Positions 1 through 12,938 of a DNA stretch of 34,505 nt are shown piece after piece. The notes beneath the pieces were generated by a model. That model saw only the letters and a list, made by a program, of their open reading frames with translations, made no database searches and was not told where the DNA came from. The DNA comes from Prochloraceae cyanobacterium (GTDB taxonomy: Bacteria > Cyanobacteriota > Cyanobacteriia > Cyanobacteriales > JASJDA01), in NCBI GenBank assembly GCA_030065755.1, contig JASJDA010000101.1, positions 1 to 34,505 of the forward strand. The letters run 5' to 3'. Position numbers and translations under genes: made by a program. Each line of letters starts with the position of its first letter. The stretch's first letter is position 1.

Positions 1-30
1 AACCAAACGAACGCACGCCTTGGAAATCTT

Positions 31-119
31 TTATTTTTAATAAGGAAGTCCTTTACGATAACTTATCTGCGGAAGTATTTAACTCAACTGCTTTATGAGG
101 ACTTCCTTATTAAAAATAA
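31..119. repeat. 22-bp perfect inverted repeat (stem-loop copy 1)
   Basis: Arms 31-52 and 98-119 are perfectly complementary over 22 bp and enclose a 45-nt spacer. The outer 13 bases read TTATTTTTAATAA and the inner nine GGAAGTCCT. A second element at 8011-8097 has the same outer 13 bases and a similar 43-nt spacer, but a different inner stem that is still fully paired. I see no target-site duplication. It could be a small non-autonomous mobile element, an IS end, or a structured RNA; which one is not decided by the sequence. Confidence 0.85.
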
Positions 120-262
120 GAAAATCTGTCCCTATTGTCCTTCGCAAGAGATTCTCTTGTTCTCTTGTTGGGTAAAACCTATATCGGTAGGCACGTTCGG
201 TCATTTACAGCAATTAATTTATTTATTTTCACATTTTAACACACTTTTGTGTGAGTACACAA

Positions 263-314
263 TTGGAGGCGCGGCTTTCCTCCCATCGCTAAAAGCGAGG
301 GTCTCCAGCCGCGA
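263..314 (+). repeat. IS200/IS605-end-like hairpin upstream of pxcA
   Basis: The outer stem CGCGGCT pairs with AGCCGCG, and an inner stem TCGCT-AAA-AGCGA is flanked by CCC/GGG. The arrangement (CTTTCCTCCC, short hairpin, GAGGGTCTCC) resembles, from memory, the subterminal hairpins of IS200/IS605 (IS1341-type) elements in cyanobacteria. It ends a few bases before the pxcA start codon, so it may form the 5' leader of that mRNA. No transposase gene remains between it and the stem-loop at 31-119. Confidence 0.5.
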
Positions 315-320
315 AATTAG

Positions 321-1598
321 ATGAAACTTAGAGCTATTTTAGGCGCTTTCCGACATTGGTTTTCTGACACTCCACAGAGAGCTTTAGATCGAGCCTATAA
401 AGCAGCATTGGCGATCGAATCGATCGAAAAAGAGTATTTTAAGGGTCAAAAAATTTCTGCTGAATTTTCTGACTATAGTGACAGTGTCGTTGCTTATTTT
501 GTAGCTAAATTTAACAAATATTTGCAAATAATTAAAATGAGAATGGCTGAATTTCAAGCCAGTTGTTATTTTGCCAATATCAATTCAGTGGATGCCCAAA
601 ATACAGCGATCGTTAAAAAGATTCAGTTTATTGAAAAAGTTATATCTAAATATGAGGCAAACTTTCTCAATGGTGAAACTATTTCTGTTGATTCTGTCAA
701 GCTTTCTTCCCAAGAATTAAACAAGCCGTCGCAAAAAAAAATAGATTTAAATTCTCAGCTAAAAGACCCAAAAAAAATTAATACACTATCCAATCGAACT
801 AGTATATTACCCAGATCTTTATTTAGAACATTTAATCGAATTAAGAGGGAAGCATTTTCTCGATCGCCAGAAAAAACAGAGGGAGAAGTAATTAAAAATT
901 TTCGCGAATCTCGCCGTAAAACTTCAATATCTCTGAGATTTTTACTAATTTTAATACTCGTTCCTTTTCTAACTCATCTATTAACAAAAACTCTGATAGT
1001 AAACCCAATAGTAGAACATTATTTTGCTCGACATACCGAGATTATTTTTATCAATACTGACCTGGAAGATCGAGCTTATAGCGAGTTGCAAAAATTTGAA
1101 GAAAGACTGCGTTTTAGAAGCTTAACTGGTTTAGCACCAGAAATGTCTCCAGAAGAGATAGAAAAACAAGTCAAACAAAAAGCTAAGGAAACCGTAAATA
1201 AATATCGCGATCGAGGAAGTGATGCTATCTCCAATATTTTTGCCGATATTTTTTCTCTAATTGCTTTTGCGGCGATCGTCTTTACGAGTCGAAGAGAAAT
1301 TGAAATTTTCAAATCATTTTTAGACGAAATTATTTATGGTTTGAGTGACTCAGCTAAAGCATTTTTAATTATCTTACTCACAGATATGTTTGTCGGATAT
1401 CACTCACCTCACGGTTGGGAAATTATCCTCGAAAGTATTTCGCGACACTTTGGAATTCCAGAGAGTCGAGAATTTAACTTCATCTTTATTGCTACTTTTC
1501 CCGTAATTTTAGACACAGTACTCAAATACTGGATTTTCCGCTACTTAAACCGAATTTCCCCTTCATCCGTAGCAACTTACAAACATATGAATCAATAA
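321..1598 (+). CDS. pxcA: Proton extrusion protein PxcA (CotA/CemA family)
   Basis: This is an inner-membrane (or envelope) protein needed in cyanobacteria for light-induced proton extrusion and indirectly for inorganic carbon uptake; CemA is the plastid homologue. The N-terminal ~190 residues are soluble and basic, the extension that separates PxcA from the shorter CemA. The C-terminal half carries the conserved membrane core: a first helix around residues 200-225 (RFLLILILVPFLTHLL), a charged loop with EIEKQVKQKAKE, and further helices near 300-320 (IFADIFSLIAFAAIVF), 345-362 and 385-405. The length of 425 residues fits the family. The ATG at 321 follows a weak ribosome-binding context directly behind an IS-like hairpin. 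It converges on a DUF760 gene. Family assignment is by recognition of the C-terminal core. Confidence 0.93.
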   Translation: MKLRAILGAFRHWFSDTPQRALDRAYKAALAIESIEKEYFKGQKISAEFSDYSDSVVAYFVAKFNKYLQIIKMRMAEFQASCYFANINSVDAQNTAIVKKIQFIEKVISKYEANFLNGETISVDSVKLSSQELNKPSQKKIDLNSQLKDPKKINTLSNRTSILPRSLFRTFNRIKREAFSRSPEKTEGEVIKNFRESRRKTSISLRFLLILILVPFLTHLLTKTLIVNPIVEHYFARHTEIIFINTDLEDRAYSELQKFEERLRFRSLTGLAPEMSPEEIEKQVKQKAKETVNKYRDRGSDAISNIFADIFSLIAFAAIVFTSRREIEIFKSFLDEIIYGLSDSAKAFLIILLTDMFVGYHSPHGWEIILESISRHFGIPESREFNFIFIATFPVILDTVLKYWIFRYLNRISPSSVATYKHMNQ

Positions 1599-1605
1599 CT
1601 AGTAG

Positions 1606-1631
1606 GTGAAGAAGGAGAAGCGGGGGAAGAG
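1606..1631 (+). repeat. GA-rich low-complexity tract after pxcA
   Basis: A purine-rich run of GAAG/GGAG units lies directly behind the pxcA stop. A similar tract on the other strand ends gmd near 27215-27281. Such tracts are common at gene ends in cyanobacterial genomes. Confidence 0.5.
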
Positions 1632-1694
1632 TTAATAGATAGAGAGAGTGAGTTGATTATTAATAAGCTAAATCTCTCACTATACTCACTATCC

Positions 1695-2051
1695 TCAATC
1701 ACTACCTCCATCGGGGTTAAATTTAGAATTCATAGAATCAGAATTAGATAAAGCGTCTTCTAAATCCTTTCGCTGTTCCATTTGACCCAGAAAATATCCT
1801 GTCATCATAGCCGAAGCTAAAAGTGTAGCCAAATTGTCCCGATCTGTTGTAATTTGGATATTGAAATCTCCTGAAGGCAACATCCCCACAAGTCCGCGAA
1901 CATTGTGAGAAATTATTTGCTTAATTTCTGGACTAGCTGACTGAGCTACTCGGGCTAAAATTTCAGGATTTTGCTGTTGGAGATATTGCAGAAGTGAATT
2001 GATTGAAGGTTCTTGTTGGTCGGAATTGAAAAATTCAGAGTTAAATATCAT
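1695..2051 (-). CDS. DUF760 domain-containing protein
   Basis: This is a small acidic soluble protein of 118 residues of the DUF760 family, found in cyanobacteria and plastid-bearing plants; its function is not established. The family pattern is visible: an N-terminal helix with SLLQYLQQQNPE, then SPEIKQIISHNVRGLVGMLP, then a motif ITTDRDNLATLLASAMMTGYFLGQMEQR. No signal peptide or membrane segment is seen. It lies 88 bases downstream of scpB on the same strand and may be cotranscribed with it. The start is an ATG. Confidence 0.87.
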   Translation of the reverse strand: MIFNSEFFNSDQQEPSINSLLQYLQQQNPEILARVAQSASPEIKQIISHNVRGLVGMLPSGDFNIQITTDRDNLATLLASAMMTGYFLGQMEQRKDLEDALSNSDSMNSKFNPDGGSD

Positions 2052-2139
2052 TAGAACTCTTTGAGTTGTGTCTACTTATACTCAATGTGACATACTTTAC
2101 AGTTTAACCGCTAGAAAGTTAAGGTCGTCAAAATTAAGT

Positions 2140-2607
2140 TTAAAGTTGAGAAAGCTGTTCGATTTCAAAATATTGATAAAATTTGTCAGTTAATTGCAAC
2201 CAGTAGGAGCGACCGTCGGTTTGACGACGTTTGCGAATTAATCCCAATTCCACAAGTTGTCGGACGTGTTCGTAAGCAGTGCTACCTCGCAGTTCAATTA
2301 ATTCAGTTTGGAGGATAGGAGTTTTTAGGGCGATCGCTGCTAAAGTTCGCAAGGTTCCAATACCCAATTCTGCTGGGACTAAGTTTTGCAATAAACCTTG
2401 AAAACAAGAGCGTAACTGAAGACTGTAACCAGTAGGCATTTCTACTACTTCTAGAGCGCTATCTCGATGGGCGTAATCCGACATTAGTTCCACAATAGCA
2501 ACTTCTGCATCCGCGCGATCGCAGCCTGCTAAATTAGCGATTTCTACAACGGTTAGAGGTTGACCTTTGAGATAGAGAATTGCTTCAATCTTACTCGCTA
2601 ATTTCAA
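2140..2607 (-). CDS. scpB: Segregation and condensation protein ScpB
   Basis: ScpB is the dimeric winged-helix partner of ScpA and SMC in bacterial condensin, acting on the nucleoid in chromosome compaction and segregation. The N-terminus KIEAILYLKGQPLTVVEIA is the typical first winged helix, and the second wing is seen in GSTAYEHVRQLVELGLIRKR. The 155 residues are at the short end of the family, with little C-terminal tail. The start codon is TTG at 2605-2607, preceded at about nine bases by GAGGAG, and no upstream in-frame ATG fits better. DUF760 follows on the same strand. scpA and smc are not in this window. Confidence 0.93.
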   Translation of the reverse strand: MKLASKIEAILYLKGQPLTVVEIANLAGCDRADAEVAIVELMSDYAHRDSALEVVEMPTGYSLQLRSCFQGLLQNLVPAELGIGTLRTLAAIALKTPILQTELIELRGSTAYEHVRQLVELGLIRKRRQTDGRSYWLQLTDKFYQYFEIEQLSQL

Positions 2608-2807
2608 CGTGGCTTTCTCCTCTCATTTGACTCTAATGGTTGGTTTTCTGGTATACAAGAACTTTGATCTATATGTTTATTTATTAACAAAAAAAACTAA
2701 ATTATAAATTTTATATCTATTAGCTTCGATATTCTTTACCTAGGTTAACATAATTTAGGCAAAAAAAAAATTATACTTTGCTAAGATAATTAACCTAAAA
2801 AATATTA

Positions 2808-3080
2808 CTAATCGACGTTTCTAAAATATTCGCTGTCTTCTTCGGTTCGAGCGATTTCCTGTAAAGTTTTCCAACCAGCTGACCACAAAGTACTATCTTT
2901 AAGCTGTTGGGCATTAATCCAAAAACGAACGCTAGGATCGCAAGAAGCAACCATTTCAGCAAATATCCATTTCCCCTTATCTTTCCGATTAACTACTTGA
3001 AAATGTCTCCATCCCCAATTATTATGTCTTGCTGTCCATTTAGACCCGAGCAAATAAGGAAATTTTTGTTTTTTTGGCAT
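2808..3080 (-). CDS. Trp-rich small protein, TIGR02450 family
   Basis: This 90-residue protein of unknown function matches the Trp-rich family by pattern: LLGSKWTARHNNWGWRHF, then KGKWIFAEMVASCD and FWINAQQLKD, LWSAGWKTLQE. It contains eight tryptophans. No membrane segment or signal peptide is seen. It is transcribed alone, away from the Wza-like gene, and a TCGAGTT/AACTCGA palindrome lies in the shared upstream region. The ATG at 3080 has no good Shine-Dalgarno sequence. Confidence 0.88.
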   Translation of the reverse strand: MPKKQKFPYLLGSKWTARHNNWGWRHFQVVNRKDKGKWIFAEMVASCDPSVRFWINAQQLKDSTLWSAGWKTLQEIARTEEDSEYFRNVD

Positions 3081-3131
3081 TTTTTAAGGAGTATATTAAT
3101 AAAATGAAAATTTAAATCAACATCGCTATAG

Positions 3132-3151
3132 TCGAGTTAAAAAAAACTCGA
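3132..3151. promoter_or_regulatory. Palindrome TCGAGTT-N6-AACTCGA between divergent genes
   Basis: A perfect 7-bp inverted repeat with a six-A spacer lies between the TIGR02450 gene (-) and the Wza-like gene (+). Its place between two divergent starts suits an operator, but it could equally form a weak terminator-like hairpin. No regulator is identified. Confidence 0.4.
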
Positions 3152-3261
3152 TAAAGTTAGATTTTGAAAAGTAAAAGGCTATTTACTTATTATCTATTAC
3201 GTTATTAAAGATGATAACCTAATTGCCAGAGTACATCTGTAATATTTTAGATGGTGTCTCG

Positions 3262-4731
3262 ATGAAAGTAAGTATAATTTTAGATTGCCAATTGAAAAGA
3301 ACACTAGGAGAAATTTCCCAAATTGCTGCGTCTTGTTTGCTGTTGTGTTTAGTAGGCATCCCTCAAGTTGTTGCCGTACCAGCAGAAACATCGGAAACAT
3401 CCCGAGAACGAGTTTTTAGCAGTAATACAGGAAATTTACCACCAAACACCCCATATATTTTGGGGCCAGGCGATCGAGTAAGGATTGATATCTTTCAGGT
3501 AGAAGAGTACAGTGGCGAATACTTAATATTAGTAGACGGTACGGTGAATTTGCCATTAATAGGGGCCATCCTAGTAGAAGGGCTGACTATATCCCAGGCG
3601 AATCAGCTCCTAACTAAAGAATACGCTCCATTTCTCAAACGTCCCATAATCACCGTCGGGATCGTAACTCCTCGTCCGATGAGAATAGCAGTAGCAGGGG
3701 AGGTCAATTTTCCTGGAACTTATGAAATTAGACTAGACCAGGAACAGCAATTTCCCTCCGTAACTGATATAATTCAAGTCGCCGGCGGAATCAGTGCTGC
3801 GGCAGACATTCATAGAGTTCAAATAAGAAGAAACGTCGGAGGATTAGAACAAGTATTCACTGTTGATTTGTGGGACTTAGTTAAAACAGGGAATATAACT
3901 CAGGATGTCAACCTGAGGGGTGGAGACTCGATTCTCATACCCGCACAAGAAAAAATAGACCCAAATGAAACCCGTCAGTTAACTGAAATTAACTTTGGCA
4001 TCCAGGCAGTTCAGCCCATTACAATAACTGTGGTGGGAGAAGTCAACCGTCCTGGCTCCTACACAATTAGGCCAGAAGAAAGAACCAGAAATATTGTCTC
4101 TCAAGAGCTTCAATCGCCACGACCCCCAACACTGACCAGAGCAATAGGAGAAGCAGGAGGAATTAAAGCCTTAACTGCCGATCTGCGCAACGTCAAACTT
4201 CGCCGCTTAACCAAAACAGGTCCCGAACAAATAATTGATGTAGATTTGTGGAACCTACTCAAGACAGGAAACGTTAATCAAGATTTGCCGTTGCAGCAAG
4301 GAGATACGGTTATCGTTCCCAAAGCTGAAAAACTAGATCCAGCAGAATCAGAAACTATAGGTGATGCAAGCTTTGCTCCCGATACAATTTCAGTTAATGT
4401 AATTGGGGAAGTAAAACAACCAGGGATTAAACAAGTCGATCCCAATACAACCTTGAATGAAGCTTTACAAGCAGCAGGAATTTTCGATTGGGAACGAGCC
4501 CATTCTCGATCGGTAGATTTAATACGTCTCAATCAGGACGGCACGGTTAGTAAGCGGACAATCGAATTAAATTTTGCTGACAATCTCAATCGAGATACTA
4601 ATCCAGCTTTGCGTAACAATGACGTGGTTCTAGTTAAGCGAGCGGGAATTACCGTGTTTACAGATGGGGTACAAATGGTATTGGGTCCCTTATTACAACC
4701 CATCCTTACTATCCGAGCCATTTTTGACTAA
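3262..4731 (+). CDS. Wza-like polysaccharide export protein (SLBB)
   Basis: This is an outer-membrane/periplasmic polysaccharide export protein that would form the exit channel for capsule or exopolysaccharide. A signal peptide occupies the first ~40 residues (LGEISQIAASCLLLCLVGI, cleavage near VVA). The export domain begins at YILGPGDRVRIDIFQ and contains GEYLILVDGTVNLPLIG; three SLBB-type repeats follow, each starting like VAGEVNFPGTYEI, VVGEVNRPGSYTI and VIGEVKQPGIKQV. I chose the ATG at 3262 because it starts directly on the signal peptide; a TTG at 3223 in the same frame would add 13 residues. No lipobox cysteine is evident at the cleavage site. The BY-kinase gene follows 98 bases later, the usual Wza-Wzc pairing. 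Confidence 0.9.
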   Translation: MKVSIILDCQLKRTLGEISQIAASCLLLCLVGIPQVVAVPAETSETSRERVFSSNTGNLPPNTPYILGPGDRVRIDIFQVEEYSGEYLILVDGTVNLPLIGAILVEGLTISQANQLLTKEYAPFLKRPIITVGIVTPRPMRIAVAGEVNFPGTYEIRLDQEQQFPSVTDIIQVAGGISAAADIHRVQIRRNVGGLEQVFTVDLWDLVKTGNITQDVNLRGGDSILIPAQEKIDPNETRQLTEINFGIQAVQPITITVVGEVNRPGSYTIRPEERTRNIVSQELQSPRPPTLTRAIGEAGGIKALTADLRNVKLRRLTKTGPEQIIDVDLWNLLKTGNVNQDLPLQQGDTVIVPKAEKLDPAESETIGDASFAPDTISVNVIGEVKQPGIKQVDPNTTLNEALQAAGIFDWERAHSRSVDLIRLNQDGTVSKRTIELNFADNLNRDTNPALRNNDVVLVKRAGITVFTDGVQMVLGPLLQPILTIRAIFD

Positions 4732-4762
4732 TTTCCTTCGAGCCGACCTCCCAATAATTAGG

Positions 4763-4786
4763 GTAACTATATTTCTCGATAGTTAC
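4763..4786 (+). other. Intercistronic stem-loop between wza-like and wzc-like genes
   Basis: GTAACTAT (4763-4770) and ATAGTTAC (4779-4786) form an 8-bp perfect stem with an 8-nt loop. No T-run follows, so it is not a classical terminator. It could protect or process the mRNA and so set the ratio of export protein to kinase. Confidence 0.5.
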
Positions 4787-4829
4787 TCGACATTAAGTTA
4801 ACTAAAGTAAAAATTCTAGAGGATTGATT

Positions 4830-7208
4830 ATGGAAGAGCAGCGTAACTATCAATTTATCCCTCTTGGCAACAATGAGAATGTTAATAACAATGGAAATTA
4901 TCAGCTATATTCCCTTCCTGTAATTAATCAAAATAATAATAATAATAATGTCAGTGATGTTGAAGAAGAAGAAGGCATAGACATACGTCAGCTTTTGAAT
5001 GTAGCAAAGCACCGCATTCGTCTTATAGCTAGAGTAGCAATTGGCGTGACTTTAGCTACAGGTATTTATATTTTTGCGCAAAAACCAACATATGAAGGGA
5101 CTTTTCAGGTCTTAGTTGGGAAACCGACCAGCGATGACTCTCAAATGAGTCTTCTTGCGGGATTGGGTGGGTCTGATGATATAGATTATGAGACTCAAAT
5201 TGAAGTCTTACGCAGTCCCAGCGTGCTAGAACCAATTATCGAGAAATTATCTCACAAGTATCCTGACATTGAATACGAAGATCTAATTACTGAGAACAAA
5301 TCACCACTGACAATTAAACAACTTAGAGATACTAAAATTTTAGAAGTATCTTATCAAGATACAGATCCAGAAAAAATTCAGTTTATTTTAGAGAATCTGG
5401 CTGATGCTTATTTGCGCTATAGCTTAGAACAGCGAAAAAAAGATATCGACCAGGGTATAGAGTTTGTTGACGATCAGTTGCCTGTTTTGAAAGCCAAAGT
5501 CGATAGCAGACAAGAAGAACTGCAAAGATTTCGCCAAAAGCACAACCTCCTCGATCCAGAAAAACAAGCAGAGCAAATCTCAAAACAACTAATAGAGCTG
5601 GAGAACCAATACTTTGCCACCAGTGTAGCGCTCAATGAGAATAAAACTAATTACGCCCTCCTGCAACAACAATTAGGTCTAGAACCATTGCAGGCTATGG
5701 CTTCAAGCTATTTGAGCGAATCTACTCGCTATCAAAAATTGCTCAACCAGCTTCAAGCAATAGAAGTTAAACTAGCAGCACAATCAACTGTTTGGGAAGA
5801 AGATAGCCCCATCATCCAAGCGCTCCAAGAAGAAAAGGAACAATTGCTGCCTTTACTGAATGTAGAAGCAAAAAAAGCTCTGGGAAATCATTTTTCTACA
5901 CATGTAAGCAATTCAGAGTCTTTGGCAACTCCAAGCTCGCTGCGCTTAGAACTAAATCAACAATTTATTCAATCTGCCAACCAAATTCAAGTGTTGGAGG
6001 TCAGACGCTCAGCCCAAGCTCGAGCTATAGAGAGTTTAAACGAGAATGTCCAAGTAATGCCCGCGATCGCTCGTGAGTACGCGAATTTACTAATGGAACT
6101 CAAGATAGCAACTCAAAGCTTGCAAGGTTTTTTAACAGCTAAGGAAAAACTACAGCTTGAAGTAGCTAAGCAAGCTTTACCTTGGCAGTTGATTGCTCAA
6201 CCAGAGTTACCAGAAGACCAGATCTTTCCTAAACCTCCCCTACATTTGACCATGGGATTAATAGTAGGTGTACTTCTAGGATTTGGCTCGGCAATATTAG
6301 CTGAGCGACTAGATCCAGTATTCCACTCTATTGAAGAACTCAAAGAGACCGTACCCCTAATACCTATTCTCGGCTTTATCCCAGCGCAAAAAGATCTCAA
6401 GACAGTCGAAAAAGTTACCCAAAGAGTTTTGCCTCAGATCCAAATTGGCAATACTACAATTGGTTTCCCTAACCCTAATAGCGATCGCGAGCGCGAAAGA
6501 CAAAGACGCTATAATTCTTCTGCTTTCCTAGAAGCATTCCGCTTTCTCAACACCAATATTCGGTTGCTGGGTTTTGACAGTCCCATCAGATCTTTAGTAA
6601 TTAGTTCTTCTGAACCAGCAGAAGGTAAATCTACTGTTTCCATACATTTGGCTAAAGCAGCATCAGCTATGGGACAGCGAGTATTATTGATAGACACTGA
6701 CTTGCGACGACCTCAAGTTCATTGTCGTTTTGGTTTGAAAAATAAGAAAGGACTTAGCAATGTAATTGCTAAAGATCTAGATTTGGAAACAGCTATCCAA
6801 ACAGTCCCTCAATGCAAAGGTCTTTCGGTTGTAACTGCAGGAGATATTCCACCAGATCCCACCAGACTACTTTCATCTCAGCGAATGCAACAGATAATGA
6901 AACAGTTAGAAGAGGAAGCGAGGTTCGATCTGGTTATTTACGATACCCCTCCTATGTTAGGTTTTGCAGATGCTAGGATTTTAGCCAAGCACACCACTGG
7001 TATGATTTTGGTAGCGAAAATCGGTAAAACAGATCGTTCTGCACTCAGGCAAAGTATTGATATATTAAAAATGTCTAAGGTTTCTATCTTAGGTCTGGTT
7101 GCTAACAACGCCATCAATGACGGTATGAAATCTAACTATTACTACGATCGTTACTATAGCGATCGCCCTGACGAAAAAGAGGAAGAAGAAGTTGTCGAAC
7201 AAATATAG
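4830..7208 (+). CDS. Wzc-like BY-kinase / chain-length determinant
   Basis: This is an inner-membrane bacterial tyrosine kinase that controls polymer length and export with the Wza-type channel. The N-terminus is Asn-rich (an AAT run) and is followed by a membrane segment near residues 60-80 (IRLIARVAIGVTLATGIYIF), a Wzz domain, long coiled coils at about 195-460, and a second membrane segment near 475-495 (LTMGLIVGVLLGFGSAIL). The cytoplasmic kinase shows Walker A (EPAEGKST, ~residue 600), Walker A' (LLIDTDLRRP, ~620) and Walker B (DLVIYDTPP, ~700). The C-terminal tyrosine cluster YYYDRYYSD is the expected autophosphorylation site. The ATG at 4830 has AGAGG seven bases upstream; a TTG six bases earlier is less likely. 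No Wzx or Wzy lies nearby. Confidence 0.92.
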   Translation: MEEQRNYQFIPLGNNENVNNNGNYQLYSLPVINQNNNNNNVSDVEEEEGIDIRQLLNVAKHRIRLIARVAIGVTLATGIYIFAQKPTYEGTFQVLVGKPTSDDSQMSLLAGLGGSDDIDYETQIEVLRSPSVLEPIIEKLSHKYPDIEYEDLITENKSPLTIKQLRDTKILEVSYQDTDPEKIQFILENLADAYLRYSLEQRKKDIDQGIEFVDDQLPVLKAKVDSRQEELQRFRQKHNLLDPEKQAEQISKQLIELENQYFATSVALNENKTNYALLQQQLGLEPLQAMASSYLSESTRYQKLLNQLQAIEVKLAAQSTVWEEDSPIIQALQEEKEQLLPLLNVEAKKALGNHFSTHVSNSESLATPSSLRLELNQQFIQSANQIQVLEVRRSAQARAIESLNENVQVMPAIAREYANLLMELKIATQSLQGFLTAKEKLQLEVAKQALPWQLIAQPELPEDQIFPKPPLHLTMGLIVGVLLGFGSAILAERLDPVFHSIEELKETVPLIPILGFIPAQKDLKTVEKVTQRVLPQIQIGNTTIGFPNPNSDRERERQRRYNSSAFLEAFRFLNTNIRLLGFDSPIRSLVISSSEPAEGKSTVSIHLAKAASAMGQRVLLIDTDLRRPQVHCRFGLKNKKGLSNVIAKDLDLETAIQTVPQCKGLSVVTAGDIPPDPTRLLSSQRMQQIMKQLEEEARFDLVIYDTPPMLGFADARILAKHTTGMILVAKIGKTDRSALRQSIDILKMSKVSILGLVANNAINDGMKSNYYYDRYYSDRPDEKEEEEVVEQI

Positions 7209-7362
7209 TTAGGGGCAAAAATAACTAGAAAACAAAAATTGGATTTAGCAAATTAGTGATTATCCCTCGTCGATCGCGTGGGAATATGGGATTGGCGAGC
7301 AGATATCGTTACTATTGGCTCTAGATTGCTAAAATAAAATTTTTGTTGTTCAGAGGTACGCC

Positions 7363-7935
7363 GTGGATAAGTCTATTATTGCTTCTACCTTACTGTTAAC
7401 TTTGCTATTGATGGTAGGTCTTGTTTTCTTCATCCGCGCCTCTGTCAAAGAGCGGACACAAAAAGTTGAATTAATATTTGAAGAACCTCTTGAATCCGTT
7501 GTTTCCCATTTTCAGGAGTATTTTCAGCAGCGATCTTATCAAACTATTGCTCTCGATACTGACAAAAAACAAGGGACTGCGACTTTTGAAGGGTTTGTCC
7601 GTCCTAGTTGGTTTCTCGCTATTTTCTTGACTTTTCTAGCTGGGATTGGCTTGTCGTGTTCGATGCTAGTTTTCTCTTTTTTGTATCCTTCGGCGAGTAA
7701 TTTTTTCCCGCTTTTAGTTCTATTGGCACCAGGAGCCGGTTATTTTTATTGGCAGAAAGCAGGACGTATAGAACAAGTTGATTTCAAAATAAAAACTCTC
7801 GATAATTCTTCTGAGAATAAACAAAGCCTAGTTACTATTAAAGCCCATAGAGACGAATTAATTGAACTTCAGCGATCGATAATACCAGTGAATTCGACTG
7901 GCAGCAAGCAATTCCAAAAATTTAGAGAAGATTAA
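7363..7935 (+). CDS. CCB1-like cofactor assembly of complex C subunit B
   Basis: This 190-residue membrane protein resembles the CCB1 family, which in plastids helps attach haem c(i) to cytochrome b6. The visible features are an N-terminal helix at residues 5-27 (STLLLTLLLMVGLVFFIRAS), a soluble stretch containing VSHFQEYFQQRSYQ and ATFEGFVRPS, and a helical pair at about 80-130 (LAIFLTFLAGIGLSCSMLVF and FFPLLVLLAPGAGYFYW). The start is GTG at 7363, with CAGAGG about six bases upstream. It stands between the BY-kinase and the IS remnant and appears to be an independent unit. The family name is from recognition of sequence pattern; a role in haem attachment is inferred. Confidence 0.8.
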   Translation: MDKSIIASTLLLTLLLMVGLVFFIRASVKERTQKVELIFEEPLESVVSHFQEYFQQRSYQTIALDTDKKQGTATFEGFVRPSWFLAIFLTFLAGIGLSCSMLVFSFLYPSASNFFPLLVLLAPGAGYFYWQKAGRIEQVDFKIKTLDNSSENKQSLVTIKAHRDELIELQRSIIPVNSTGSKQFQKFRED

Positions 7936-7978
7936 CGATAGGCAGATTTTAGTAAACTTTAACTAGATGTCAAAAGAA

Positions 7979-8002
7979 GTCCCACTGTTTCACTGTGGGG
8001 AC
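7979..8002 (-). repeat. Inverted copy of the TnpB-element end hairpin
   Basis: CCCAC-T-GT-TTC-AC-T-GTGGG is a hairpin with one T-T mismatch. Its reverse complement matches the hairpin at 8947-8965 at 17 of 19 positions. The two differences turn the A-A mismatch (minus strand) into a G-C pair in the other copy. The flanking AAG and AGTT-like bases are also partly shared. Confidence 0.7.
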
Positions 8003-8010
8003 TGATGTTC

Positions 8011-8097
8011 TTATTTTTAATAAAGTACCCCTTTTCTTTAAGTTATTGGTGTGAGGGATAGGTTATCGGTTTTAGAGGGGTACTTTATTAAAAATAA
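8011..8097. repeat. 22-bp perfect inverted repeat (stem-loop copy 2)
   Basis: Arms 8011-8032 and 8076-8097 are complementary over 22 bp around a 43-nt spacer. The outer 13 bases (TTATTTTTAATAA) are identical to the element at 31-119. The inner nine bases, AGTACCCCT, differ from its GGAAGTCCT at four positions, and each change is matched on the other arm. The element ends 21 bases before the first in-frame codon of the truncated tnpB. Confidence 0.85.
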
Positions 8098-8118
8098 AAG
8101 ATTTTCCAGGGATGAATT

Positions 8119-8943
8119 TTGACCAACAATAAACGCGGGGTAGCGCATCCTTATTCTATATTAAAAACTGTAACTATCAGCAAAACTCCAACAGGAAAAT
8201 ATTACGCCTCATTATTATTTGATACTAAGCAAGAAGAGCCTGAAGTAGTTATTAGTGGAAAAGTTATTGGTATAGACTTGGGAATTAAAGACTTTGCTGT
8301 TACTAATAATGGAGAAAAAAGCTCTAAATATAATAATCCCAAACATCTTGCTAAACATGAGAAAAATTTAGTCCGCAAACAAAAAAAGTTAGCTAGATGT
8401 GTTAAAGATAGTAACAGTAGACTTAAAGCTAAAAGGTTAGTTGCTAGGGTATACGAACGAATAAGCAATGCCCGTCAAGACTTTCTACACAAGTTATCTA
8501 GAAAAATAGTCAATGATAACCAAGTAGTAGTTATTGAAAATTTGAATGTCAAAGGTATGGTTCGTAATCGCAAATTAGCTAAAGCTATATCTGATGTTGG
8601 CTGGGGAATGTTTACCAATTTCTTAGACTACAAACTGAAAGAAAAAGGTGGAAAGTTACTAGAAATTGATAGATGGTTTCCTAGCTCTAAAACCTGCTCT
8701 AGCTGTCTTTATCAAATGAATGAAATGCCATTGGATGTAAGAGAATGGACGTGTCCTAGTTGTGGAACTCATCACGATCGTGATGAAAACGCAGCTAAGA
8801 ATATTAGAGCAGAAGGTATCAGACAATTATCGGTCTTAGGGACTAGGACTGCTGCTAGTGGAGGGGATGTCAGACCAAAAGGTGGGCGAAAGTCTGTCTT
8901 GAGGCAATCCCCGATTGAAGTCAAACAACTTCAGGGAAGCTAG
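8119..8943 (+). CDS. tnpB: N-terminally truncated TnpB (RNA-guided nuclease family)
   Basis: TnpB proteins are RNA-guided DNA nucleases of IS200/IS605 elements and ancestors of Cas12. The RuvC residues are all visible: Asp53 in IGIDLG, Glu140 in VVIENL and Asp222 in HDRDENAA. The zinc ribbon cysteines are at 193, 196, 212 and 215. The usual length is about 370-410 residues; here about 110-130 N-terminal residues (helix-turn-helix/WED and part of REC) are missing. An in-frame TGA at 8113-8115 closes the frame upstream, and the best start is a TTG at 8119 without a clear ribosome-binding site. A 22-bp stem-loop occupies the lost region. It is most likely a decayed gene; a repurposed short protein is possible but unproven. 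Confidence 0.85.
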   Translation: MTNNKRGVAHPYSILKTVTISKTPTGKYYASLLFDTKQEEPEVVISGKVIGIDLGIKDFAVTNNGEKSSKYNNPKHLAKHEKNLVRKQKKLARCVKDSNSRLKAKRLVARVYERISNARQDFLHKLSRKIVNDNQVVVIENLNVKGMVRNRKLAKAISDVGWGMFTNFLDYKLKEKGGKLLEIDRWFPSSKTCSSCLYQMNEMPLDVREWTCPSCGTHHDRDENAAKNIRAEGIRQLSVLGTRTAASGGDVRPKGGRKSVLRQSPIEVKQLQGS

Positions 8944-8973
8944 AAGCCCACGGTGAAACCGTGGGTAGTTCAC
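8830..8973 (+). ncRNA. Candidate omega-RNA (reRNA) at the tnpB 3' end
   Basis: In this family the guide RNA scaffold overlaps the 3' end of tnpB and finishes at the element's right end. Here that end is the 8-bp hairpin CCCACGGT-GAA-ACCGTGGG (8947-8965) followed by TAGTTCAC (8966-8973). The 5' limit given is a guess. The guide would then be whatever follows base 8973. Confidence 0.4.
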
Positions 8974-9014
8974 CCCCGCTCAATTGTTGCAAAATTGAAC
9001 GGGGATTTATTATT
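8974..9014 (+). terminator. Terminator-like hairpin after the TnpB element
   Basis: CCCCG-C-TCAATT (8974-8985) pairs with AATTGA-A-CGGGG (8993-9004), 11 pairs with one C-A mismatch and a 7-nt loop, followed by the AT-rich ATTTATTATT. It separates tnpB from the convergent DUF3155 gene. Confidence 0.6.
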
Positions 9015-9025
9015 ATAGTTAAACC

Positions 9026-9343
9026 TTAATGAGCGGCTACAGGTGATGGATTTGTTTTATTCTGAGGAAGTAGCTCTCTCAAACTAGGAAAGAGAAAATG
9101 ATTTTCTTCAACGTATTGAGCTCCAAACAAACCTTTTTCTGCCCAAAAGTATTTATCCGTAGTGTGTTCGTTCCGTCTGACAATTAAAACTGCTGGAGGG
9201 GGAATATCTCGCTCGGCTATATATCTGCGTGCTGCTGTTACCGGTTTTTCTTCTCCGCTTTCAATATTATACTGGGGTACTAATTCAAGTATTTTGCGTC
9301 CTTCTTGGCGACGGCGGCTTTTACGCTTGCGTTTTCTTGCCAA
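9026..9343 (-). CDS. DUF3155 domain-containing protein
   Basis: This 105-residue protein belongs to a cyanobacterial family of unknown function. It starts with a very basic stretch (MARKRKRKSRRRQEGRK) that could bind nucleic acid. Conserved blocks follow: VPQYNIESGEEKPVTAARRY, PPPAVLIVRRNEHTTDKYFW and AEKGLFGAQYVEENHFLFPS. No membrane segment is seen. The start codon is TTG at 9341-9343, firmly set by a strong Shine-Dalgarno GGAGGT eight bases upstream. The C-terminal ~12 residues are low-complexity. It converges on the TnpB remnant. Confidence 0.87.
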   Translation of the reverse strand: MARKRKRKSRRRQEGRKILELVPQYNIESGEEKPVTAARRYIAERDIPPPAVLIVRRNEHTTDKYFWAEKGLFGAQYVEENHFLFPSLRELLPQNKTNPSPVAAH

Positions 9344-9580
9344 CCCACTTACCTCCTATCTCTTATCTTAACTGTAATCATAGTTACAAAAATCGAGAAA
9401 ATTATATCCAGAAAAGGACAGAAAATCAACCACTTGTAACGAATTAAACCTAGGTATTTGATGACCTGCAACAAAGACTGGCAGGGGTTTAAAGGGCATA
9501 ATAAGTGGCTGACAAAAAATAAAAAAAATATAAATTTGTTCAGAAAAAGATAACAAAGACTAATTTAGTAGATAGAGCAA

Positions 9581-10921
9581 ATGTCCGATCGAGACCCCAT
9601 TATTATTTGTGCTAGCAGAGAATTTATTACCCTGTGTAAATCGCAGATAGCCCTTTTGACTACAGCTTTGGGGGCTTCAATGAGTGCTGTCTACGTAGCT
9701 GAAGACTTGCTAGAAAATACTCAAGCTAAATTGATCGAGATAGCAGTATATCCAGAAAACGATACCATCTGGTCAGAAGATACTCGTTCAGAAGTCATAC
9801 CACAAATTTGGGGAAGGTGGCGAGAAACACCTCGTTTACCAAGAGCAGCATTACCAGAAGCACAAAAGAAAATATTGGAGCAAGAGAGCGCCGACTCAAC
9901 AGCAACACAAAGACAACAGGGATCTTTAAGAATGCACCGTCAAATTGTATTACCTTTAATTTATGAAGACGTGGTGGTAGGTTTGCTAGTAACGGGAAGA
10001 TCCGATCGACAATGGAATCAACAAGAATACGCTCAAATCGAACGAATTGCTACAACTATTGCTAGCGCTCGTTTTCTCGATCGACGTCTTAACTGGTATC
10101 GGGAGCGGTTAGACAGAGAAGAAAAACTGCGCACCATAAGTCAAAATAGGCTAGATGACTTCCTACATCAATTGCGCAATCCCATAACTGCTTTGCGTAC
10201 CTTTAGTAAGCTGTTACTCAAACGTCTATTACCAGAAGATCGCAACCAAACTGTTGCTCGAAGTATGTTAAGAGAAAGCGAGCGATTACAAGAATTAGTG
10301 CAACAATTCGATCTCCAGGGAAATTTAAACAACGCAGATTCCCCCCTAATTCTCCAACCAGCTAAGCATTCTTTAGCACAAGGAGCGACAACATCTTCTA
10401 GCTATAGCTCTTTTGAACCCGAAAATACTCTTAGTTTAGAACCAATATCTCTACGAGAAATCCTCGACCCTCTATTAACTTCTGCTGGCGCGATCGCAAG
10501 CGAGCGAGATATTAACTTGACCTACCAGATTCGAGAGAATTTAGCCCCTGTTAAAGCCAATGCTATGGCACTGCGGGAGGTCGCCAGCAACTTAATCGAC
10601 AACGCCTTAAAATACACCCCAGCAGGGGGTAGAGTGGACGTAGAGGCTGGAATAGAGCTAGTGGCAGACAACGAGCGCCTCTGTGGAATTTCTATTCGCG
10701 ATACGGGCTGTGGCATCCCCCCAGAAGACCGCGAGCGCATTTTCGATCGCCATTACCGAGGAGTCCAAGCAGCAGGGGACATTCCTGGTACTGGTTTAGG
10801 ACTGGCGATCGCCAAAGAATTAGTGGAACAAATGCACGGATTTATCGAATTAATTAGCTCCAATACATCTCCTCAAAAAGGAACGACCTTTATTATTTGG
10901 CTCCCTGTTACCGATAATTAA
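9581..10921 (+). CDS. hik2: GAF-domain sensor histidine kinase, Hik2/CSK-like
   Basis: This 446-residue soluble histidine kinase has an N-terminal GAF domain (about residues 5-165) and no membrane segment, like cyanobacterial Hik2 and the chloroplast sensor kinase CSK, which sense redox state (photosynthetic electron carriers). Cys10 and Cys19 lie in IICASREFITLC; from memory, the conserved cysteine of the GAF domain in Hik2/CSK supports an iron-sulphur cluster. The phospho-acceptor is His196 in DDFLHQLRNPITALRT. The ATPase domain shows the N box (NLIDNALKY), G1 (DTGCGIP), F box (IFDRHYRG) and G2 (GTGLGLAIAKEL). No response regulator is adjacent, as is usual for Hik2. The assignment to Hik2 rather than another GAF kinase is fairly secure by architecture and N-terminal pattern. 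Confidence 0.85.
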   Translation: MSDRDPIIICASREFITLCKSQIALLTTALGASMSAVYVAEDLLENTQAKLIEIAVYPENDTIWSEDTRSEVIPQIWGRWRETPRLPRAALPEAQKKILEQESADSTATQRQQGSLRMHRQIVLPLIYEDVVVGLLVTGRSDRQWNQQEYAQIERIATTIASARFLDRRLNWYRERLDREEKLRTISQNRLDDFLHQLRNPITALRTFSKLLLKRLLPEDRNQTVARSMLRESERLQELVQQFDLQGNLNNADSPLILQPAKHSLAQGATTSSSYSSFEPENTLSLEPISLREILDPLLTSAGAIASERDINLTYQIRENLAPVKANAMALREVASNLIDNALKYTPAGGRVDVEAGIELVADNERLCGISIRDTGCGIPPEDRERIFDRHYRGVQAAGDIPGTGLGLAIAKELVEQMHGFIELISSNTSPQKGTTFIIWLPVTDN

Positions 10922-11300
10922 AAAAAATAAATTTAGTTAAATATATCTTGAAGTTTAGTTAAATAAATCGAGAAAATAAGGATTGTACGCAAACAATCTC
11001 AAGCAGATTCTCCGTATATTCACTTATCCAAAAACAATAAACTTAAAATTTCCGTATATCTATTCATGCGTATGCGAAGTTTTTCTAGATATGATTTTAT
11101 ATCAGCTTTACTATACACCGTATAACTAGCGCCTCAAGGCGCTGAATTCTTGGCCAGTTGGGTATTGAGAGATATTAAAGCCCGAATTAAATTACCTTGT
11201 ATCTCAAGATACCAACTAACAGTAAAAGCAAAAAAAACATCTATTTTGCTGGTAAAGTCTCATTAGATTTATCCCAACAATAAACGGAAAAATAAAACCG
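10922..11300. other. 379-base intergenic region with short repeats
   Basis: No gene is supported. The region is AT-rich. TTTAGTTAAATA occurs twice within 30 bases after the kinase gene and TCCGTATAT occurs twice near 11010-11060. A 7-bp hairpin AGCGCCT-CA-AGGCGCT lies at 11128-11143. The promoter of the channel gene is probably here, but no boxes can be assigned with confidence. Confidence 0.5.
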
Positions 11301-12938
11301 ATGACAGGCACACAAATAATAGAAGTGGATATCTCAAGCCTCTCACCATTGCTATTAGCACAATCGGATACAGCTTCAGAACCCTCAACTTTGGGTATTG
11401 AGTCATTTATCTCGGCAATAAGTGAAAGTCTCGGCGGTTCAGTGCCAAATATAATTGGGGCGATCGCCTTTTTGGTAGTGGGCTGGATCGTGGCCTTAAT
11501 TGCGTCAGGAATTGTTAGAGGAATACTCAGTAAAACTGATATAGACAACAAAATTGCTGCTTGGATTACTGGAGCCAAAGAGGAAAAAGGCCCGCCTGTA
11601 GAAAAATGGGCGGGCGATATCGCATATTGGCTAGTCATCTTATTTACTTTGGTTGGGGTCCTCAATTCCCTCCAACTAGATGCAGTTTCTGAGCCTCTTA
11701 ACGAATTTTTAGGGCAAGTAACTGGCTTTCTGCCCAAGCTTGGCGGTGCGGCGATCTTGATAGGGGTTGCTTGGCTGCTAGCAACTGTGGCTCAACTGGT
11801 TCTCAACAGAGCTTTGGGGACGCTTCGCCTCGACGAACGCCTCAATCAACAAATGGGAGAGGAAGCACCTCCAGAAAGCCAATTTCACCTCAGCGAAACC
11901 CTCGGTAATGCAGTTTACTGGTTCATTTTTTTACTGTTCTTACCATCTATCCTGGGTACTTTGGAATTAGAAGGAACCCTCCAACCAGTACAAGCACTTC
12001 TAGACCAAACCCTCTCTATTTTGCCCAAAATTTTGGCAGCAGTGCTGATTGGTGCAGTAGGCTGGTTAATCGCTCAGATAGTGCGTCGCGTGGTGAGAAG
12101 TTTTTTGGCAGCTACAGGATGCGATCGTCTTGGCGAAAAATTTGGCTTGTCTGCTAGTGCGGGTCGTCAATCTCTGTCTTGGATTATTGCCACTATTGTC
12201 TATATCTCGATCTTAATTCCCGTAGCTATTTCCGCTCTTAATGCCCTGCAGATTGAAGCGATTTCCGCTCCAGCGGTCGCCATGCTGCAAGACGTGCTTA
12301 GCATTCTACCTAAAATATTTGCTGCTTCAGTCGTTTTAATCGTTGCTTATGTTATCGGACAGTATGTATCTGAATTAGTTACTAGTATTCTTACTGGGGT
12401 TGGCTTCAATAATGTTTTTCAATGGCTGGGTTTATCTTCTCGCCCTGCAACTCCAGCCAGTCCAGAAACAAAAAAAGACCCATCTTCTGATGGGACTAGA
12501 ACCCCCTCACAACTGGTAGGAGTTATTGCCCAAGTTGGTATTATCCTAATTGCGACTTTGACTGCTGTTGATATTCTCAAAATTGAAGCTCTAACAACAG
12601 TGGTTAAAGTAATTTTAGCGATCGCTTCTCAAGTCTTGATTGGAGTGGTTGTCTTTGCTATTGGTCTATATTTGGCTAATGCTGCTTTCTACTTTATTTC
12701 TACTTCTGGTACTCGTCAGTCTAAAATACTCGGACAAACTGCTCGCATTGCTATTATTACCTTGGTGTCCGCAATGGCACTTCAACAAATGGGTATTGCC
12801 CCTAATATTGTTAATTTAGCTTTCGGGTTGCTCGTAGGTGGAATTGCGGTTGCTATTGCCCTTGCTTTCGGTATAGGCGGTCGGCAAATTGCTGCCCAAC
12901 AATTACAAGAATGGCTCGATGCTTTGAAGAAAGAGTGA
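11301..12938 (+). CDS. Mechanosensitive-channel-like TM-helix repeat protein
   Basis: This 545-residue integral membrane protein is built from repeated units in which an amphipathic segment (for example GQVTGFLPKLGGAAILIGVA, then LSILPKILAAVLIGAVGWLI and LSILPKIFAASVVLIVAYVI) leads into a hydrophobic helix and a short charged linker. This is the TM-helix repeat of CmpX-type proteins, often annotated as mechanosensitive ion channel family. At least four such repeats plus additional helices are seen. The beta-domain and C-terminal cage of MscS are not evident; the protein ends soon after the last glycine-rich helix (LAFGIGGRQIAAQQL). A role in turgor or envelope stress is inferred. A terminator lies 33 bases after the stop. 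Confidence 0.78.
   Translation: MTGTQIIEVDISSLSPLLLAQSDTASEPSTLGIESFISAISESLGGSVPNIIGAIAFLVVGWIVALIASGIVRGILSKTDIDNKIAAWITGAKEEKGPPVEKWAGDIAYWLVILFTLVGVLNSLQLDAVSEPLNEFLGQVTGFLPKLGGAAILIGVAWLLATVAQLVLNRALGTLRLDERLNQQMGEEAPPESQFHLSETLGNAVYWFIFLLFLPSILGTLELEGTLQPVQALLDQTLSILPKILAAVLIGAVGWLIAQIVRRVVRSFLAATGCDRLGEKFGLSASAGRQSLSWIIATIVYISILIPVAISALNALQIEAISAPAVAMLQDVLSILPKIFAASVVLIVAYVIGQYVSELVTSILTGVGFNNVFQWLGLSSRPATPASPETKKDPSSDGTRTPSQLVGVIAQVGIILIATLTAVDILKIEALTTVVKVILAIASQVLIGVVVFAIGLYLANAAFYFISTSGTRQSKILGQTARIAIITLVSAMALQQMGIAPNIVNLAFGLLVGGIAVAIALAFGIGGRQIAAQQLQEWLDALKKE

Follow-up and report, generated by a model that had tools for sequence, protein, structure and literature searches.

The window, i.e. 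the whole stretch of 34,505 nt analysed here, carries two perfect hairpins, the first inside an interrupted tnpB gene at the start of the contig and the second in front of a tnpB reading frame lacking its N-terminal part (Table 1). The remainder of the tnpB split by the first hairpin passes beyond the contig end. The second lies in a repeated, hairpin-bearing fragment that is probably an IS605-type end, judging from the adjoining tnpB. Between them, positions 3223-7208 hold a gene pair adjoining CCB1, namely a polysaccharide export protein and a Wzz/ParA-like gene, with ScpB and CemA farther upstream; all of these are ordinary cyanobacterial genes.

Table 1. Features of the two hairpin elements in the window, and related palindromes at other loci
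Feature	Position	Strand	Basis
Element copy 1, foot to foot, 110 bp	21..130	-	family alignment and empty sites of same-site paralogue L040_1515
Copy 1 feet on the minus strand, GACAGATTTTC ... AAGATTTCCA	21..130	-	
Copy 1 left 22-bp arm, TTATTTTTAATAAGGAAGTCCT	31..52	.	sequence
Copy 1 spacer, 45 nt, GATAACTTATCTGC type	53..97	.	spacer alignment
Copy 1 right 22-bp arm	98..119	.	sequence
CCT direct repeat (AGG on the minus strand) adjoining copy 1	18..20	.	sequence; empty paralogues, ATAGG joined to (C/T)TGCG
CCT direct repeat, other side of copy 1	131..133	.	sequence and empty paralogues
Interrupted IS605/IS607-type tnpB, N-terminal piece (..YRFYPTREQENLLRRTIG)	134..195	-	flank read by eye
Element copy 2, foot to foot, 109 bp	8000..8108	+	empty sites L160, L161
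Copy 2 feet, GACTGATGTTC ... AAGATTTTCCA	8000..8108	+	
Copy 2 left 22-bp arm, TTATTTTTAATAAAGTACCCCT	8011..8032	.	sequence
Copy 2 spacer, 43 nt; spacer family of copy 1, inverted and diverged	8033..8075	.	spacer alignment
Copy 2 right 22-bp arm	8076..8097	.	sequence
GGG, target direct repeat left of copy 2	7997..7999	.	empty site in L160, ACTGTGGG joined to ATGAATTTTG
GGG, target direct repeat right of copy 2	8109..8111	.	empty site in L160
Repeated hairpin-bearing fragment (GTCCCACTGTTTCACTGTGGG) entered by copy 2	7960..7999	.	occurs empty at L160, L161
tnpB (OrfB_IS605, Cas12f1-like TNB) ORF without N-terminal part	8119..8943	+	
Y1 genes or fragments with a palindrome copy shortly downstream	L177, L178, L179, L192		
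Palindromes of genome G187	L167:282-359, L167:885-964, L168:642-718, L169		

An earlier, sequence-only reading of this DNA had described two inverted repeats with perfect 22-bp arms and spacers of 43 and 45 nt, sharing their outer 13 bases and differing at four of the inner nine positions, each difference being compensated on the opposite arm. This description is borne out in full, with 100% complementarity of the arms. Chance alone would yield about 4e-7 perfect inverted repeats of 22 bp within 200 bp per window of this size; this is our own estimate at equal base frequencies, and AT-richness pushes it upward, though not to a relevant level. The spacers had been called unrelated, which proved wrong: when one of them is reverse-complemented, both align to a single family spacer (CGATAACYTATC...AACTTA) that contains two short direct repeats (ATAACTTATCTGC ... 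TTAACTTAACTAC), and they are linked to each other via intermediates such as L020 and L013. The boundaries of copy 2, with GGG on both sides, follow from the L160 empty site, which reads straight through the junction. The target site of copy 1 is less clean and shows a 1-bp indel relative to its empty paralogues (L150, L151 and L165), while its core is that of the same-site paralogue L040_1515 (0/45 spacer differences).

Both hairpins belong to a family of MITE-like, non-autonomous palindromic elements some 105-112 bp long. When all copies are oriented by their flanks, a common plan emerges: a first foot of 9-12 nt (e.g. GACCGATGTTC, GAAGGATGTAT, GAGAGATGTTT or GGAAGAAAA), a perfect arm of 20-22 bp, a spacer of 42-46 nt (37 nt in a single outlier), the complementary arm and then a second foot unlike the first (e.g. 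AAGATTTGCAN, AATCATTGTAA, ACTTTTTGTCG or ATTATTCG), with a short direct repeat flanking the element on the outside. The two feet are imperfectly inverted (GAAGGATGTAT versus TTACAATGATT), and in one copy (L078) the 3'-kind foot stands at both ends, so that the entire copy is palindromic. Foot sequence differs by class, and the constant tetranucleotide tag (GTAG/CGTC) of REP/RAYT systems is absent.

The 8.46-Mb draft genome contains 24 exact instances of the outer-arm pattern and none of a reversed-pattern control; a looser pattern raises the count to 375 over both strands, with 57 for the corresponding control. A search with a covariance model, which the sequence-only reading had proposed, was run with a model made from 21 copies and returned at least 148 matches in the genome, both strands counted. 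From the loci, 126 places were read, including three from the sister species, yielding 116 distinct element sequences. Counts resting on the covariance model are lower bounds, and the genome has more than 110 distinct copies; since many copies lie at contig ends, contig-end duplicates are possible and the true copy total is uncertain. Many contigs start or stop at a copy, among them the window's own (at position 1) and C120, C203, C204, C239, C257 and C287. The high copy number (116 distinct sequences), small size, lack of coding capacity and inverted repeats are all as in MITEs.

Copy number is high in this species and low in its sister species, the sole congener examined, which has three copies. 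Among 391 genomes of the order, the only match beyond these two species came from one genome of another family (G187), whose elements have the same architecture, with perfect arms of 17-18 bp and spacers of 43-44 nt, and unrelated arm sequences. The plasmids searched gave no match to the element, and the exact 22-mer arm was absent from viral contigs. A wide pattern search of genome contigs gave nine single matches in unrelated, named AT-rich genomes, which are best read as chance.

Empty sites, also proposed as a check by the sequence-only reading, speak for insertion. For more than 20 copies, the two flanks, once joined, align cleanly across the insertion point to intact paralogues, either from this genome or from the sister species, usually revealing a direct repeat of 3-4 bp, as expected for a MITE, albeit imperfect in some foot classes. 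Exact 3-bp repeats at these sites are GGC (L020, L042, L039_1401), CCC (L076), GGG (L037, L050 and the window copy at 8011), ACC (L027_123) and TCC (L039_537), and 4-bp repeats are TTAC in L048_2176 and CTAC in L103. Direct repeats 3 bp or longer flank 89 of 116 copies in the whole set. Shuffling the right flanks lowers this number to 71 (maximum 80) if exchange stays inside each foot class and to 48 (maximum 63) if it runs across all copies. Near-identical copies, with 3-9 differences in about 110 bases, occupy unrelated sites, so the view that the pattern arose by something 'rather than recent copying' fails for a family that has plainly been copied around the genome.

The target triplet can be predicted from the foot. 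Counting same-site paralogues, the left triplet is CCC in 16/16 copies with GAAGG/GAAAG feet, GGC in 13/15 with GACCG, GGG in 6/8 with GACAG, GACTG or GATAG, and TAC in 6/10 with GGAAG. The direct repeat is unclean in the GGAAG class, where the right triplet is TAC in three of the four copies with a non-TAC left triplet, as though it were part of the element. GC-richness of the target is limited to three positions, i.e. the triplet itself. Hairpin-shaped targets were considered and rejected, as the joined target sites fold no better than neighbouring sequence (p = 0.95).

Insertions at this short, mostly GC-rich triplet often fall within transposase genes, and some lie in other copies of the element. 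Mobile-element families account for many of the 40 flanking reading-frame fragments, namely TnpB/OrfB_IS605, several DDE families, ISL3, resolvase and integrase; five flanking frames without an obvious name matched no Pfam family. Excision of the element plus one repeat restores a split reading frame for 29 of 126 copies. The insertion lengths modulo 3 are 0, 1 and 2 in 14, 7 and 8 cases, and general in-frame insertion is rejected, only 5/29 interrupted frames being read through in frame. Copies of foot class F6 are open more often (15/22). Two copies (L028:1515 and 1801) lie within one IS607-type resolvase gene, at least one of them read through in frame (KENIIFNKEVL...DFLIKNKNIP), and L126 and L127 are in-frame copies inside PemK/MazF-like toxin-antitoxin genes. 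Copies nested in the spacers or arms of others were found at L072, L073, L077, L082, L095, L116 and L124. There are also clusters of copies (L073:1715-2125, L102:600-1980, L080, L082), some nested in another's spacer or arm, which include tandemly repeated half-elements (52-bp left and 32-bp right halves).

Where diverged paralogues carry a copy at the same site, the elements have diverged far less than their surroundings: the feet differ by 2.6%, the next 30 nt by about 12% and the flank at 45-200 nt by 16-17%. Such a divergence step at the element ends is seen, for example, in L126/L127, L040_2431/L071 and L027/L031/L032/L049. This same-site likeness could stem from recombinational spread of an occupied site between paralogues or from repeated insertion at the same nucleotide.

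The arms of each copy match almost without exception while differing between copies. Among the 116 distinct copies there are 45 arm haplotypes; 107 copies are perfect over 20 pairs, and mismatches affect just 10 of the 2,320 pairs at positions 3-22, versus about 499 when arms are shuffled between copies (1,000 shuffles, minimum 440). In the first 21 copies (462 cells), 33 changes are both-sided and none is one-sided. Matched double changes have also occurred in place: L036_2787 (AGTAGCCCT) and L084 (AGTACCCCT) share a site, and L052 has a unique outer arm (TTATTTTGAATAA) at the site it shares with L050 and the window copy. Spacers, for their part, flip. L087 and L103 have site and arms in common and differ at 3/45 spacer positions when one is inverted against 26/50 in direct alignment; many other pairs of closely similar copies, sitting at different sites, are also inverted relative to each other. 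L050 and the copy at 8011 share arms and site and have different spacers.

Chance, or debris, had been the fallback of the sequence-only reading should the pair be the only two hits. AT-rich outer arms do arise by chance in other AT-rich genomes, as the nine single matches illustrate, but more than 110 homologous copies, clean empty sites and extreme covariation reduce this explanation to a negligible probability. The same reading had put forward two further explanations, selection on the structure or repair between arms, and the covariation that it had suggested testing is far above shuffles. Under selection on RNA (or single-stranded DNA) structure, the stem would be kept by classical compensatory mutations; the strong predicted folds (z -4 to -6) and the excess of covariation over shuffles fit this account. 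Compensatory evolution should, however, leave G-U intermediates, and wobble pairs are not enriched (G-T makes up 3/10 inner mismatches) while one-sided changes are hardly seen. Copies that interrupt genes or lie as nested debris are equally perfect, spacer inversion is not predicted, and positions 1-12000 of the window had no Rfam match at gathering score. We consider structural selection an improbable main cause. Scarce intermediates, matched double changes and spacer inversion at the same sites point instead to a process at the DNA level. Template switching in yeast produces both arm homogenisation and spacer inversion (PMC8604942), and it can maintain hairpin pairing through single multi-base events or double changes (PMC8794818). 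As arm matching together with spacer inversion is this published signature (PMC8604942), 'repair between arms' is well supported and preferred over structural selection, and template switching is, from the pattern, the most likely process in these hairpin elements. Some of the arm change may nevertheless be exchange of whole cores between copies, e.g. 8011 versus L050, which counts against arm-to-arm copying as its only source.

How the elements move is a separate matter, on which two accounts compete. They may be classical MITEs moved by the DDE transposase of some insertion sequence, with the feet as imperfect terminal inverted repeats and a target duplication of 3-4 bp. Their size, copy number and direct repeats, the imperfectly inverted feet and the insertion into many unrelated genes agree with this, as does the co-variation of left and right triplets, which favours a DDE-moved MITE. 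Class-specific target triplets are unusual for classical MITEs, though, and no insertion sequence with such ends was found: the end motif GATGTNNTTATTTTTA occurs at 112 places, and among the matches listed there is no inverted pair 1-2.5 kb apart that would mark an autonomous partner, in a draft assembly that breaks at copies. We rate this account as plausible, a little short of even odds. The other account holds that they are single-strand hairpin elements of the IS200/IS605 type, moved by a Y1 (HUH) transposase that recognises the target through its base pairing with the element's foot. In that case the right triplet would be the site at which the element itself is cleaved rather than a duplicated target. 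Foot-specific targets favour such pairing, since foot type predicts a triplet to which it is partly complementary (GAAGG/GAAAG at CCC 16/16, GACCG at GGC 13/15), and some GGAAG copies retain the right triplet TAC next to a different left one. The genome has 16 Y1_Tnp matches, of which at least 11 are near-complete. Of these 16 genes or fragments, four are followed by a copy, in three cases about 50-60 bp beyond the stop codon; one has a copy on its 5' side, the others none. The downstream copies are not all of one foot type, as would be expected if each had entered an IS200/IS605 element independently, and a Y1 gene as dedicated partner, repeat-flanked as in REP/RAYT systems, was accordingly rejected. 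Moreover, GGAAG and GAGAG feet lack complementarity to their targets, and the triplets co-vary within foot class (89 versus 71 shuffled, with TGC/TGC and TAC/TAC in one class), as true duplications would. We hold movement by a Y1 enzyme to be conceivable but less likely than not.

Taken together, we favour, at a probability of roughly 80%, a MITE-like palindromic mobile element whose arms are homogenised by template switching and which is moved in trans. During replication, template switching would keep the two arms of each copy identical, one arm being copied from the other on a hairpin or sister-strand template. In this way a mutation in one arm would become a matching change on both in a single event, which would sometimes flip the spacer as well. 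A putative trans-acting transposase would mobilise the elements, with the target triplet set by the foot sequence. A broader superfamily of cyanobacterial hairpin elements, including those of G187, with mobility guided by pairing between foot and three-base target and stems kept unselected by template switching, is conceivable but rather unlikely.

The sequence-only reading knew of no named family that the hairpins match. This stands insofar as positions 1-12000 of the window gave no Rfam match at gathering score and the family appears new as such, as far as the tools and literature searched show; in its behaviour, however, it resembles MITEs or Rickettsia palindromic elements (RPEs). RPEs, as described in PMC10969869, are likewise palindromic mobile repeats of about 100-150 bp with many copies in several families, inserted within protein-coding genes and partly read through in frame (here L028, L015 and L126/L127). 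The present elements differ in host bacterium and sequence, in that a minority of interrupted genes is read through (5/29) and these genes are often transposase genes, and they show class-specific target triplets and spacer inversion. Prokaryotic MITEs such as Nezha of cyanobacteria and the Correia elements are also short, non-coding and high-copy, with inverted repeats, terminal direct repeats and empty sites; in our family, by contrast, inverted repeats occupy most of the length, the arms vary in concert and no parent insertion sequence was found. REP/BIME and the IS200/IS605-derived palindromic elements (PATEs) share hairpins with non-identical feet and foot-linked target choice, whereas the hairpin family has an apparent 3-4-bp duplication, a length of about 110 bp, a 42-46-nt loop, no constant GTAG-like tag and many copies within genes. 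Quasipalindrome template switching in E. coli and yeast shows the same arm homogenisation and spacer inversion (PMC8604942), but here it would act on more than 110 natural copies of one bacterial mobile family with 45 haplotypes. We therefore regard the hairpin family as an ordinary MITE/RPE-like palindromic mobile element with unusual features, namely concerted arms, flipping spacers, foot-specific targets and self-nesting.

Compensatory change is commonly taken as proof of a selected RNA structure. In this bacterial family, with its more than 110 copies and 45 arm haplotypes, stems have apparently stayed perfect by arm-to-arm copying, which cautions against relying on covariation alone in RNA discovery. 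As a naturally occurring collection, the family lends itself to testing how frequently template switching mimics selection, and its foot-dependent target choice is testable by a simple assay.
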